From NCBI GenBank assembly GCA_035559535.1, contig DATMBG010000012.1, positions 124,001 through 188,000 on the forward strand: 64,000 nucleotides of DNA, written 5' to 3'. Made by a program: the position numbers and the translations under genes. Positions 15,413-57,326 of the stretch are shown here, piece by piece. Under the pieces are notes generated by a model that did no database searches, was not told the DNA's origin, and saw only the letters and a list, made by a program, of their open reading frames with translations. Positions within the stretch are counted from its first letter, which is position 1, and every line of letters starts with the position of its first letter. Origin of the DNA: Candidatus Limnocylindrales bacterium (GTDB taxonomy: Bacteria > Moduliflexota > Moduliflexia > Moduliflexales > JAUQPW01).

Positions 15413-15573
15413 CAGGTCACCCCGCTAGGGCTAACCTTCTTATCCTGGCGCGTAGGTCCTTGAGTGGGAGACTTCAGTAAGAACAATCCCTCCCCCCCCC
15501 TAACCTCTCTCCCAAGTTGGGGTTAGGGGCATAGGTGCCAGAATAAGAAGGTTGGCTCCAGCGGGGTAACCTG
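15413..15573. mobile_element. MITE-like element, family C
   Basis: 161 bp bounded by inverted repeats of about 44 bp (15413-15456 and 15530-15573) that differ at roughly eight positions; shared blocks include ACCCCGCT and AACCTTCTTAT. The inner ends CTTATCCTGGCGCGTAGG are also the ends of the element at 24378-24547, so the two are related. The centre is C-rich with no ORF. Confidence 0.7.
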
Positions 15574-15680
15574 GGGATAGCCTCTGGTACTCATTGCTCT
15601 TTATCTATTGACAGAGAGGACCCTCCCCTTTTAAAATTTATTTTTAGTTTCTCTTAAAAAACGTTGAGGTACCTTGGATT

Positions 15681-16109
15681 ATGTTACTTACATCACAAAC
15701 CCCAATCATCATAAAGTTAACTAACCGAGAGACCTTGAGCGGTCTCTTTTTAAAACTGGATGAAAATAGTCTTTATATTCGGGATCAGGGACAGATCCGG
15801 GCTATTCCTTTCCTGGATATTCAGTATGGCTATCTTGTTCAAGAGCAAGAACTCGTCCAGAGAGCCCTTCGCCATATGAAGAACCTGGAAGGGGTTGATT
15901 TCAAACCCGGTAGCCTCAAAGTTCCCGACGGCTTTCTTCAAGATGCTATTATAAAGGGTTACCCCATTGGATTAACAACCCTGGATGGAACGGTCATCTC
16001 AGGGAAACTCCTTCAGTTCGATCCCCTCTGTCTCTTTTTGGAATTACGTAAGGGTGGTAAAATTTGGGTTTTCCGTTGCGCGCTCACGAGCTTTTATAAA
16101 ATTTTATGA
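15681..16109 (+). CDS. Tandem Sm-fold (Hfq-like) small protein
   Basis: 142 aa, not Hfq itself. Residues about 90-142 follow the Hfq layout: a FLQD helix end, GYPIGLTTLDGTVISGKLLQFD (split Sm1 strands with the Gly and FD positions of Hfq), then LFLELRKGGKIWVFRCALTS at Sm2, with Arg-Cys where Hfq has Lys-His. Residues about 5-55 look like a second Sm unit (IIIKLTNRETLSGLFLKLDEN, then IRAIPFLDI). Sm proteins bind RNA or act as scaffolds. Its TGA overlaps the ATG of the downstream DNA methyltransferase (ATGA at 16106-16109), a strong sign of coupled expression. The Sm call is by eye; a structure search would settle it. Confidence 0.6.
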   Translation: MLLTSQTPIIIKLTNRETLSGLFLKLDENSLYIRDQGQIRAIPFLDIQYGYLVQEQELVQRALRHMKNLEGVDFKPGSLKVPDGFLQDAIIKGYPIGLTTLDGTVISGKLLQFDPLCLFLELRKGGKIWVFRCALTSFYKIL

Positions 16110-18394
16110 ATCTTAAATCCCTGCGATCCCTGGTTCAGACTTGTAAAGGGTACCTGGAAGAAGATTTGAGCCGTCAGTTGGTAGGAACATGGAAAGATAG
16201 AGACCAGCAGATGCAGAGACGCAGGGACCCGGAGACATGGAACCATGCAAAGGGACTAATTCTTCCTTTGGCTCCGGAAGATTCCTGCCGGGCGGTCGAC
16301 CCGGCTGTTAAGACCTATGTGAAGGAACTTGCCCTGAGTTTTTTCCTTCAGCAGGTTATCTCCCATGTTTGGGAACAGATTTCTCTATCTCCGGGTTCCT
16401 GTATTTCTACCGTTTTGCCTTCTTCAATTACTCCTTCTGAGTCTACCTTAAAAAAGGTTCAGACCTGTCTGAGAGAAGGAATCTCATCTGCCGATTGGCA
16501 TCTTCCGGATATATTGGGCTGGATTTATCAATTCTTCATGGAGGAGACTGAGGAACAGATCCAAAAAGGCCAGTTTTATACCTATCCCTGGATAGGGAGT
16601 TATCTGGTCGAAAAAACTTTGAAAACTTTTTGGGAAGAAATCAAAGCGGGGCAACGGGATTTGAAGCGGGTTAAGGAAATCAAACTTTTAGATCCTGCTT
16701 GTGGTTGTGGAAGTTTGTTAATTCAAGCTTTTGAGGTATTTTATCAAATGTATCAAGAGGAAGGGGAAATTTCTGAAGGGGAGATACCTCGATATATTTT
16801 AAAGTACAATCTCTATGGAATCGACATAGATCCACTGGCCTGTCAATTGGCAACCCTGAACCTTTACCTCAAAGCTAAAGAAAAAGATCCTGGGTTTTCC
16901 ATGGAGACCCTCCCTATCCTTTGTGCGGATACTTTACTGGGAGAAGAGAGTCGGAGGGGAAGAATCCCTGAAATCGCCTATCAGATTGGAAGTTATATCC
17001 ATCAACTTTGCCAGGACTTTTCCTTTTCTACCCTTTGTTTCTCCCCCCCTCCCCTGCTCGCGGGGGAGCCCTCCCGTGGACGGGGGGAAGGGGGGCTTCT
17101 ACCGCAGATCCGGGGCAACGGACTACAGACCACGGATAGTGACCCACATGCTTTTTTCCGGCAGCGTTATGAGTGTATTGTTGGAAATCCTCCCTATGTG
17201 GTTATCAATCAGCTCAAAACTCCACCGGAGGTGGTTGCCAGATATAAACGGTATCGGTCTGCAACTTTCAAGATCAACACCTTTGCCCTCTTCCTCGAAC
17301 GGGGAATCGAACTTTTAGCTCCCAAGGGGCTCCTCAGCTATGTGGTCCCAAATACCCTATTCACCCAGGTTTACTTTGAAGCGTTGAGAAAATATCTTCT
17401 GGAGAAGACCCGAATTCTAGAAATCATGGATACCAAAGGTCTTTTTCAAAATGCCTTTGTAGAGAATTGTATTATTTCCCTGGAGCGAGAATCTCAAGAA
17501 GAACAGAGGAAAAATCAGGAAGTCCAGATCAAAGTCCCTCCTGCTGAGAATTTACGAATCCTCCAAGGTCCTGGAAACCCTGTTTTTTCCTGTTACCAGA
17601 CCCACACGATTCGGCAGAGTCAATTCTATAGGACTCCCGGTGCCCTGTTCAACATCTATCTTAAAGGTGCGGAGATTCAACTCATGGATAAAATCGAAGC
17701 CGGATGCTGGGCTCTGGGAGAAATCTGCGAAAGCCATGATGGGATCAATCCGGGAAATGTAAAACGAAAGTTGATTTCTACCCGGAAACTAACCGAACAT
17801 CATAAAAAGGTTTTAAATGGAAAGGATATCTGGCGATATGGGCTTCGGTGGAGCGGCCTGTACATTTGGTATGATCGGCGTATTCTGGAACCTGGAGATA
17901 ATATGCGATGGGGATCTGAGAGGGCTTTAAAGTCTGCAAAAATTCTTACCCGGCAAACAGCCGATCGAATCATCGGAACTTTCGATGAAGGGATCTATTA
18001 TGTTACAAATACCATTCACACCACCATTCTTCGAGAAGGGGTTCAGGGAGTTGATCTGAAATACATCCTGGCCCTGTTGAACTCCAAACTTCTTTCTTTC
18101 TACTATCGAAAATTGATTCCAGAAACCGGCCAGCTTTTTTCCCAGGTTAAGCTGGTTCATCTCAGAAAGTTACCTATCAAAAAGGTAGAACTCCAGGTTC
18201 AGAAGGAATTCGTAACGCTGGTAGACGCCCTTATGTCTGCCCATCAGGTTCCGATTAATCAGAGGAGTAGAGAAGAAATCCACCAGATTGACCTGTTGTT
18301 GGATCGGAAAGTTTATGAACTTTATGAATTAGAAGAAAGTGAAATTCAGCGCATAGAAGCAGCAGGGAAGATATCCCATAGCGAAGGGCAATAA
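16106..18394 (+). CDS. Eco57I/TaqI-type DNA adenine methyltransferase with specificity domain, no visible nuclease
   Basis: 762 aa. In order: a helical N-terminal domain (1-150), motif X GQFYTYPWIGSYLVEKTL (about 155), SAM motif I LLDPACGCGS (about 193), GIDIDPLACQLA, motif IV VGNPPYVV (about 360), KGLLSYVVPNTLF, and a TaqI-like specificity domain (about 545-690; NGKDIWRYG, TNTIHTTIL, LNSKLLSFYYRK). It should methylate adenine N6. No PD-(D/E)xK nuclease is evident in the N-terminal part, so it may be an orphan or need a partner. In-frame repeats occur at codons 32-45 and 312-350. The usual family ending (ELEESEIQRIE) is followed by 11 residues encoded by a decayed antisense EamA gene. The gene overlaps the upstream Hfq-like gene by 4 bases. 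Confidence 0.88.
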   Translation: MNLKSLRSLVQTCKGYLEEDLSRQLVGTWKDRDQQMQRRRDPETWNHAKGLILPLAPEDSCRAVDPAVKTYVKELALSFFLQQVISHVWEQISLSPGSCISTVLPSSITPSESTLKKVQTCLREGISSADWHLPDILGWIYQFFMEETEEQIQKGQFYTYPWIGSYLVEKTLKTFWEEIKAGQRDLKRVKEIKLLDPACGCGSLLIQAFEVFYQMYQEEGEISEGEIPRYILKYNLYGIDIDPLACQLATLNLYLKAKEKDPGFSMETLPILCADTLLGEESRRGRIPEIAYQIGSYIHQLCQDFSFSTLCFSPPPLLAGEPSRGRGEGGLLPQIRGNGLQTTDSDPHAFFRQRYECIVGNPPYVVINQLKTPPEVVARYKRYRSATFKINTFALFLERGIELLAPKGLLSYVVPNTLFTQVYFEALRKYLLEKTRILEIMDTKGLFQNAFVENCIISLERESQEEQRKNQEVQIKVPPAENLRILQGPGNPVFSCYQTHTIRQSQFYRTPGALFNIYLKGAEIQLMDKIEAGCWALGEICESHDGINPGNVKRKLISTRKLTEHHKKVLNGKDIWRYGLRWSGLYIWYDRRILEPGDNMRWGSERALKSAKILTRQTADRIIGTFDEGIYYVTNTIHTTILREGVQGVDLKYILALLNSKLLSFYYRKLIPETGQLFSQVKLVHLRKLPIKKVELQVQKEFVTLVDALMSAHQVPINQRSREEIHQIDLLLDRKVYELYELEESEIQRIEAAGKISHSEGQ
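16206..16243 (+). repeat. Heptamer-type repeat inside the methyltransferase gene
   Basis: The purine-rich units GCAGAGA, CGCAGGG, ACCCGGA and GACATGG follow each other in phase, encoding QQMQRRRDPETW. The same units form intergenic hairpins, for example at 30021-30106, and appear inside the histidine kinase gene (about 42155-42180). It is read through in frame. Confidence 0.5.
17041..17140 (+). repeat. In-frame palindromic repeat inside the methyltransferase gene
   Basis: A C/G palindrome (CTCGCGGGGGAG and CTCCCGTGGACGGGGGGAAG) followed by a piece related to the end of the NAT gene near 5978-5997 (ACGGACTAC..ACGGATA). It encodes SPPPLLAGEPSRGRGEGG and a linker, in a loop just before motif IV. 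The GTGGAC core matches intergenic palindromes near 3075 and 24430 and the insert at 42199-42222. The reading frame stays open. Confidence 0.7.
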
Positions 18395-18518
18395 AGCTAA
18401 AAGGGAAGAATTCAGCTATGGCCGATTTAGCAATACTGTTGTTAATCCCCCACACGAAAGCCACGAAGATCAGGAATATATCTGCCAGTAAGTGTTTTTT
18501 TCCCATACGACTGCCCAT
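18359..18518 (-). pseudogene. Remnant of an EamA/DMT-family transporter (N-terminal part only)
   Basis: A minus-strand frame opening with MGKKHLLADIFLIFVAFVWG (ATG at 18506) continues NNSIAKSAIAEF, then FSFIALRYGISSLLLLC: the first membrane helix and the start of the second, with the loop and Arg typical of EamA/DMT exporters. Homology stops at about 18359, where the methyltransferase gene lies on the other strand; the remaining eight or so helices are missing. The methyltransferase stop codon lies within this remnant. It is probably not functional. Confidence 0.65.
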
Positions 18519-57217: not shown

Positions 57218-57326
57218 GTATCCGTATCCATTTAGTAGGTGGAAAAAGAAACACCCCCCTGGAGGGGGGCCAGGGGAGGGTTCAGACAGAAAAAATGACA
57301 CCTACCAACTAAATTATTATAGTTAC
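57218..57326. mobile_element. MITE-like element, family A, complete copy
   Basis: 109 bp. Left end GTATCCGTATCCATTTAGTAGG and right end CCTACCAACTAAATTATTATAGTTAC are the family A inverted termini, with a central C/G hairpin. It is flanked by the 10-bp direct repeat ATTTTGGGAG (57208-57217 and 57327-57336), the signature of insertion. Shorter than the 2450 copy because the central stem is smaller. Confidence 0.75.

Follow-up and report, generated by a model that had tools for sequence, protein, structure and literature searches.

In a 64,000-nt stretch of a Candidatus Limnocylindrales bacterium genome (the window; G000:C12:124001-188000 of a source assembly of 5.6 Mb in 58 contigs), we identified a pair of genes in which a well-supported tandem Hfq-superfamily Sm protein of 142 aa precedes a solitary N6-adenine DNA methyltransferase (MTase) of 762 aa. 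The Sm protein leads to a broad and apparently undescribed tandem-Sm family, for which sequence comparisons across another phylum give strong evidence of belonging with restriction and defence enzymes, both from protein fusions and from a repeated order of DrmD-like, TmtA-like, Sm and Type ISP genes. Evidence that the two genes of the window pair are functionally linked is thin: RNA-binding control of expression is slightly the most likely reading, and bystanders that happen to share an operon are about as likely.

The Sm gene lies at 15681..16109 on the forward strand (stop codon included) and is supported by its open reading frame (ORF), by Pfam Hfq_1, by profile alignment of both halves and by the ratio of nonsynonymous to synonymous substitution rates (dN/dS). 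Its C-terminal Hfq-type domain (about residues 80-142; 15918..16106, forward strand) reaches the Pfam Hfq_1 (PF21979) cut-off of 27 with 27.1 bits over residues 86-136 (E 4.7e-6), and matches a set of 12 Hfq proteins in hhalign at 98.4% (E 6e-15). The N-terminal half, a degenerate Sm domain (residues 1-55; 15681..15845, forward strand), matches the same set at 95.0% (E 4e-8) and the C-terminal half at 87.7%. The original prediction had read the C-terminal half as Hfq-like and the N-terminal half as a second Sm unit, and it was right on both counts, because hhalign matches both halves to Hfq and to each other. When residues 78-142 were modelled alone, they formed a helix and four strands (predicted local distance difference test, pLDDT, 73), and the top 25 Foldseek matches of this model were all Hfq chains (prob 0.84-1.0), but at E 0.03 or worse. 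A full-length AlphaFold model from the single sequence, without an alignment, reached a pLDDT of 46, and its Foldseek result is meaningless.

Profiles built from the family point the same way. A profile of ten members matches Hfq crystal structures in the PDB (3ahu at E 4.3e-7, 6gwk and 1kq1), and a profile seeded by four divergent relatives, when run against 385 diverse genomes, retrieved tandem proteins and, via the C-terminal half, ordinary Hfqs, including one encoded immediately downstream of miaA. As the canonical Hfq model (PF17209) scores 15.1 bits against a cut-off of 27, the window protein is best described as a divergent Hfq relative. Its sole single-sequence match in the PDB is 3hfn, the cyanobacterial Hfq-related protein Asl2047, which belongs to the Hfq_1 family; these proteins are short and single-domain (72 aa in 3hfn), whereas the window protein has two units and stands beside an MTase. 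Canonical Hfq forms a hexameric ring of single Sm domains, in contrast to the two Sm units per chain seen here. The tandem Hfq family NF010691 (PRK14091) of NCBIfam is of about equal length and matches weakly over residues 3-134 (E 0.0066), but the window protein is not a member, since it scores 16 bits where the cut-off is 270. Three other genomes (G113, G250 and G377) encode short proteins, in frames of 173-188 aa, each of which the Hfq model matches twice; they appear to be tandem Hfqs of another kind.

The MTase gene follows at 16106..18394 on the same strand, as assigned from its ORF, Pfam and orthologues. The encoded chain (METHYLTRANSFERASE) matches the families Eco57I (E 3.8e-27), TaqI_C (8e-22) and N6_Mtase, and it carries the hallmarks of an Eco57I/TaqI-type N6-adenine MTase, namely the S-adenosylmethionine motif I (LDPACGCG, 16688..16711) and motif IV (NPPY, 17186..17197), both placed by alignment, and a TaqI_C-like specificity domain at residues 568-691 (17807..18178, Pfam), all on the forward strand. 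Pfam recognised no nuclease family within the 762 aa, so that the same-chain nuclease of Type IIG enzymes is lacking, and none was recognised among the neighbouring ORFs, in agreement with the earlier description of a solitary adenine MTase. Among its closest relatives of known structure are BrxX-type enzymes, 7lni, an enzyme of 578 aa that we take to be CamA of C. difficile, and TaqI (1g38). With the last two, both solitary MTases, the window enzyme has in common the catalytic motifs, the TaqI_C-like region and the absence of a nuclease, but it differs from them in its length, an extra N-terminal region and the Sm gene upstream. Its core is also related to those of BREX PglX, DISARM DrmMI and Type IIG enzymes, and the DrmMI and Type IIG models match; the BREX-1 PglX model matches at E 5e-52, but its 176.9 bits fall far below a cut-off of 500. 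On reading the ORFs of window 8-27 kb, a region for which no profile search was made, we recognised no BREX (brx/pgl) or DISARM neighbours, and a search of viral contigs returned no relatives of the MTase.

Both genes are under constraint by comparison with the sister species G001, the sole other genome of the window's genus in our comparison set, with a dN/dS of 0.12 for the Sm gene (codon 56, a stop in G001, left out), indicative of purifying selection, and of 0.20 for the MTase gene. The G001 neighbourhood is syntenic at about 90-92% nucleotide identity with the same gene order, and its MTase is intact (746 aa, 87% identity). The window MTase gene differs by a lineage-specific in-frame insertion of 42 bp (17042..17083, forward strand), found by tblastn and absent from the sister species, which carries inverted C/G runs and lies just ahead of motif IV. 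On the reverse strand, at 18255-18518, is the remnant of an EamA-type transporter gene, 299 aa in the sister species, after a deletion of about 740 bp that also altered the MTase C-terminus.

The overlap of the two genes noted at the outset was confirmed: they share ATGA at 16106..16109, which joins the Sm stop to the MTase start, and the overlap is kept in G001. Ahead of the Sm gene stands a Shine-Dalgarno-like GTTGAGGTA (15661..15680, forward strand; duplex energy -6.9 kcal/mol), in contrast to the MTase start, where no independent ribosome site is convincing (-2.2 kcal/mol). Further upstream, window 15413-15573 contains an inverted repeat with 47-nt arms that are 81% complementary. Sequence ahead of the Sm gene in G001 is similar to parts of the window around 2457-2607 and 57225-57326, from which it follows that dispersed repeats occur in the genus.

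The contrast between the two ribosome sites, the conserved overlap and gene order and the constraint on both genes support an operon reading, which we favour tentatively, at somewhat less than even odds. It also draws on the absence of a nuclease, on the Hfq-superfamily identity of the Sm protein and on the recurrence of double-Sm domains, described below, with RNA-binding domains, with restriction and defence proteins and, in G416, with an MTase gene overlapped by ATGA. In this operon the stand-alone double-Sm protein would probably bind RNA, and the MTase would be translated mainly, through coupling at ATGA, by ribosomes that have finished the Sm gene, with the result that MTase dose would follow Sm translation. 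Hfq controls expression of its own mRNA, and the Sm protein may similarly control expression of its own operon, possibly by feedback on its own mRNA. The MTase would then be epigenetic rather than restriction-linked.

Several observations weigh against this reading. Residues by which Hfq contacts RNA are replaced in the window protein: in the hhalign alignment Gln8, Phe42 and His57 of Hfq correspond to Pro, Leu and Cys, and Lys56 to Arg, so that neither the Sm2 Y-K-H motif nor the proximal-face Gln8 and Phe42 is present. The Arg-Cys substitution, pointed out at the outset, is real, forms part of the motif F131-R132-C133 and is common to the sister species. Because these residues are replaced while most tandem-Sm family members retain Arg/Lys-His, RNA binding by the window protein is plausible but not assured. 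In G001, moreover, a CAA-to-TAA change at codon 56 places an in-frame stop in the Sm gene and leaves a 77-aa C-terminal Sm ORF, although the stop may be an error, since the contig title gives a coverage of 1.48. The pair is kept in one other genome only, that same member of the genus. We also rejected the ATGA overlap as evidence of function: it is not specific, because an overlap of 4 bp also joins tandem-Sm genes at other loci to metabolic genes that are unrelated, namely a sulfatase-like (L057), a dehydrogenase-like (L154) and a peptidase-like (L160) gene.

These overlaps, and a G001 MTase that is intact beside an interrupted Sm gene, speak for a rival explanation, in which the two genes are bystanders: the Sm protein would bind RNA, the solitary MTase would be unrelated to it, and their common operon in this genus would be a coincidence with no functional link. 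To this we also give a little under an even chance. The MTase orthologue in Candidatus Vecturithrix granuli (G003, of the same order as the window genome; 42% by tblastn) adds to its appeal, being preceded by a metallophosphoesterase-like gene in place of an Sm gene, in a genome where no tandem-Sm protein was found. The UASB270 genome carries that name and is placed in phylum KSB3/Modulibacteria (PMC4312070). A genome-record scan with two short conserved patterns, which could miss distant orthologues, found MTase relatives in UASB270 and in the metagenome bin JZ-2.bins.100. Outside the defence clade described below, to which the window Sm does not belong, an MTase adjoins one tandem-Sm locus among 44 others, a frequency that chance could roughly account for, and the window pair was itself chosen for study because it looked odd. 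The pair had been proposed to form a system, with co-occurrence across genomes as the proposal's own test; beyond the genus this fails, and because the pair is confined to the genus and the Vecturithrix MTase is free of Sm, there is no widespread two-gene system. Against a chance association stand the purifying selection on the Sm gene, the conserved overlap, the weak independent ribosome site of the MTase and the independent Sm-MTase and Sm-restriction associations found elsewhere.

The tandem-Sm family extends well beyond this pair. About a dozen of the 385 genomes contain it, several of them with a cold-shock domain (CSD) ahead of the tandem Sm, and double-Sm domains recur with the RNA-binding domains CSD and S1. 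When a CSD-Sm query was compared with viral contigs, the cold-shock part alone matched. In the phylum of G319, which phyH-, sulfatase- and LamG-like neighbours tentatively suggest to be Poribacteria, a phylum-wide search found tandem-Sm in 79 of 85 genomes, with up to five copies, and in most of the 79 as a CSD-type protein of 310-345 aa. The window genome encodes a second tandem-Sm protein (L002:601-2214, on G000:C32) of 537 aa, whose C-terminus weakly matches ParB_N and whose gene lies directly behind a histidinol-dehydrogenase-like gene, without an MTase neighbour; an apparent third, at G000:C44, was taken as a chance match, because the sequence of that frame is of cytochrome-c type.

This near-universal presence in one phylum is compatible with the Sm protein being the lineage's replacement for Hfq, a general RNA chaperone next to an incidental MTase, as is the finding that none of 15 genomes tested (G000, G001 and other tandem-Sm genomes) has an Hfq over the Pfam cut-off. 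We nevertheless consider such a replacement unlikely. The second and larger tandem-Sm protein of the window genome would be better suited to the role, and the Hfq proximal-face residues are not conserved in the window protein. Canonical Hfq occurs in 62 of the 385 genomes, and its absence from 13 tandem-Sm genomes has a chance probability of about 0.10, (1-62/385)^13, which makes mutual exclusion of the two suggestive and not significant.

The phylum-wide search also overturned a reading of the Sm-restriction link as merely local. All ten tandem-Sm ORFs in frames of over 800 aa were retrieved from this phylum: six encode GmrSD nucleases, three TmtA/sacsin-like ATPases and one a 1338-aa chain of UvrD helicase, GrpE, tandem-Sm and S1 (L104:3063-7079). 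The six GmrSD (Type IV-like) enzymes (L103:6221-8875, L105:6234-8930, L107:3715-7095, L108:428-3250, L109:3886-6564 and L110:4006-6429) carry the tandem Sm towards the C-terminus, five of them together with a cold-shock domain; some of these genes stand among rows of several GmrSD genes. At L112 a tandem Sm is fused to an RNase-H-like exonuclease domain. In addition, a DrmD-like helicase, a TmtA-like ATPase, a tandem Sm and a Type ISP restriction enzyme form a recurrent cluster, complete at L101:8-10884, L106:7108-17001 and L117:112-10953, where L101 and L106 have the Sm attached to one end, C- or N-terminal, of the TmtA-like protein and L117 encodes it in a separate gene. Partial clusters are present at L102, L113, L114, L115, L118, L119, L121-L123, L144 and L145. 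In four of these the Sm protein begins with a segment like the start of the DrmD-like helicase (L121:5829-6668, L122:5803-6642, L144:6014-6847 and L145:7017-7907; phmmer 1e-15 to 1e-20), and its gene is followed by a Type ISP enzyme or fragments thereof. The arrangement looks like an undescribed defence cluster with a putative RNA-binding component. A further association, in G416, joins a tandem-Sm gene by an ATGA overlap to an N6_N4 MTase with an Mrr-like domain (L143:6287-8322), in the reverse gene order of the window pair.

In a phylogenetic tree, the fused and cluster-associated Sm domains form one clade of 25 rows (support 100/97), which also holds a few copies without an immediate defence neighbour; the G416 Sm falls in another clade, and the window Sm in a third, CSD/ParB-type clade, on a long branch. 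Simple adjacency is weaker evidence than the fusions and the repeated gene order, because Type ISP genes (0-21 per genome of the phylum) and GmrSD genes (0-7 per genome) are abundant and many of the adjacent Type ISP cases lie at a single syntenic site that follows an export-protein-like gene; Type ISP adjacency was accordingly set aside as statistical proof, and only a minority of GmrSD genes show the fusion to Sm. The link between Sm proteins and restriction enzymes that the window pair had first suggested is thus upheld in part, by recurrent fusions and clusters in another phylum; the window Sm itself falls outside the defence clade, and chance could explain its pairing.

Fusions of double-Sm domains to GmrSD, TmtA-like, UvrD and exonuclease-like proteins show that the domain can be part of such enzymes, and they count in favour of a physical complex of Sm and MTase, where an Sm ring would hold RNA that guides or scaffolds methylation. 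For the window pair we regard this as very improbable: the MTase carries a TaqI_C specificity domain itself, its orthologue lives without Sm, and an Rfam scan over the window matched no RNA family. The guide or scaffold role entertained in the original prediction thus found no evidence in its favour.

Tandem Hfq proteins and solitary MTases are each of an already known kind. For the link of the tandem-Sm family to restriction or defence enzymes, we apparently have no precedent: the open-access literature yielded no description of it and no account that connects tandem Hfq domains with either methyltransferases or restriction enzymes. The nearest concept is that of the CoCoNuT Type IV systems, in which RNA-binding domains (CSD and YTH-like) are carried on McrBC-based restriction enzymes (PMC11090510). 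The idea is comparable with that of the GmrSD-Sm-CSD fusions, although CoCoNuT enzymes are McrBC-based and the fusions are GmrSD, and neither 'Hfq' nor 'Sm domain' appears in the main text of that paper.

Hfq-type Sm domains are known as chaperones of small RNAs. A broader proposal, possible though on present evidence doubtful, is that the enzymes of restriction, modification and defence have, on several independent occasions, taken up the tandem Hfq-type Sm as a general accessory that binds RNA. The window operon would be a minimal and separately evolved example, sensing or binding RNA to control or aim its enzyme. If true, RNA binding would be linked with the enzymes that tell self from foreign DNA, and such a link would mean either that dangerous enzymes are controlled post-transcriptionally or that RNA is sensed. 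By itself the window pair is of modest importance, and the family to which it led is more interesting: tandem-Sm proteins allow the idea to be examined in a number of independent cases, some of them single-chain fusions, for which it is difficult to argue that the parts are functionally unconnected.

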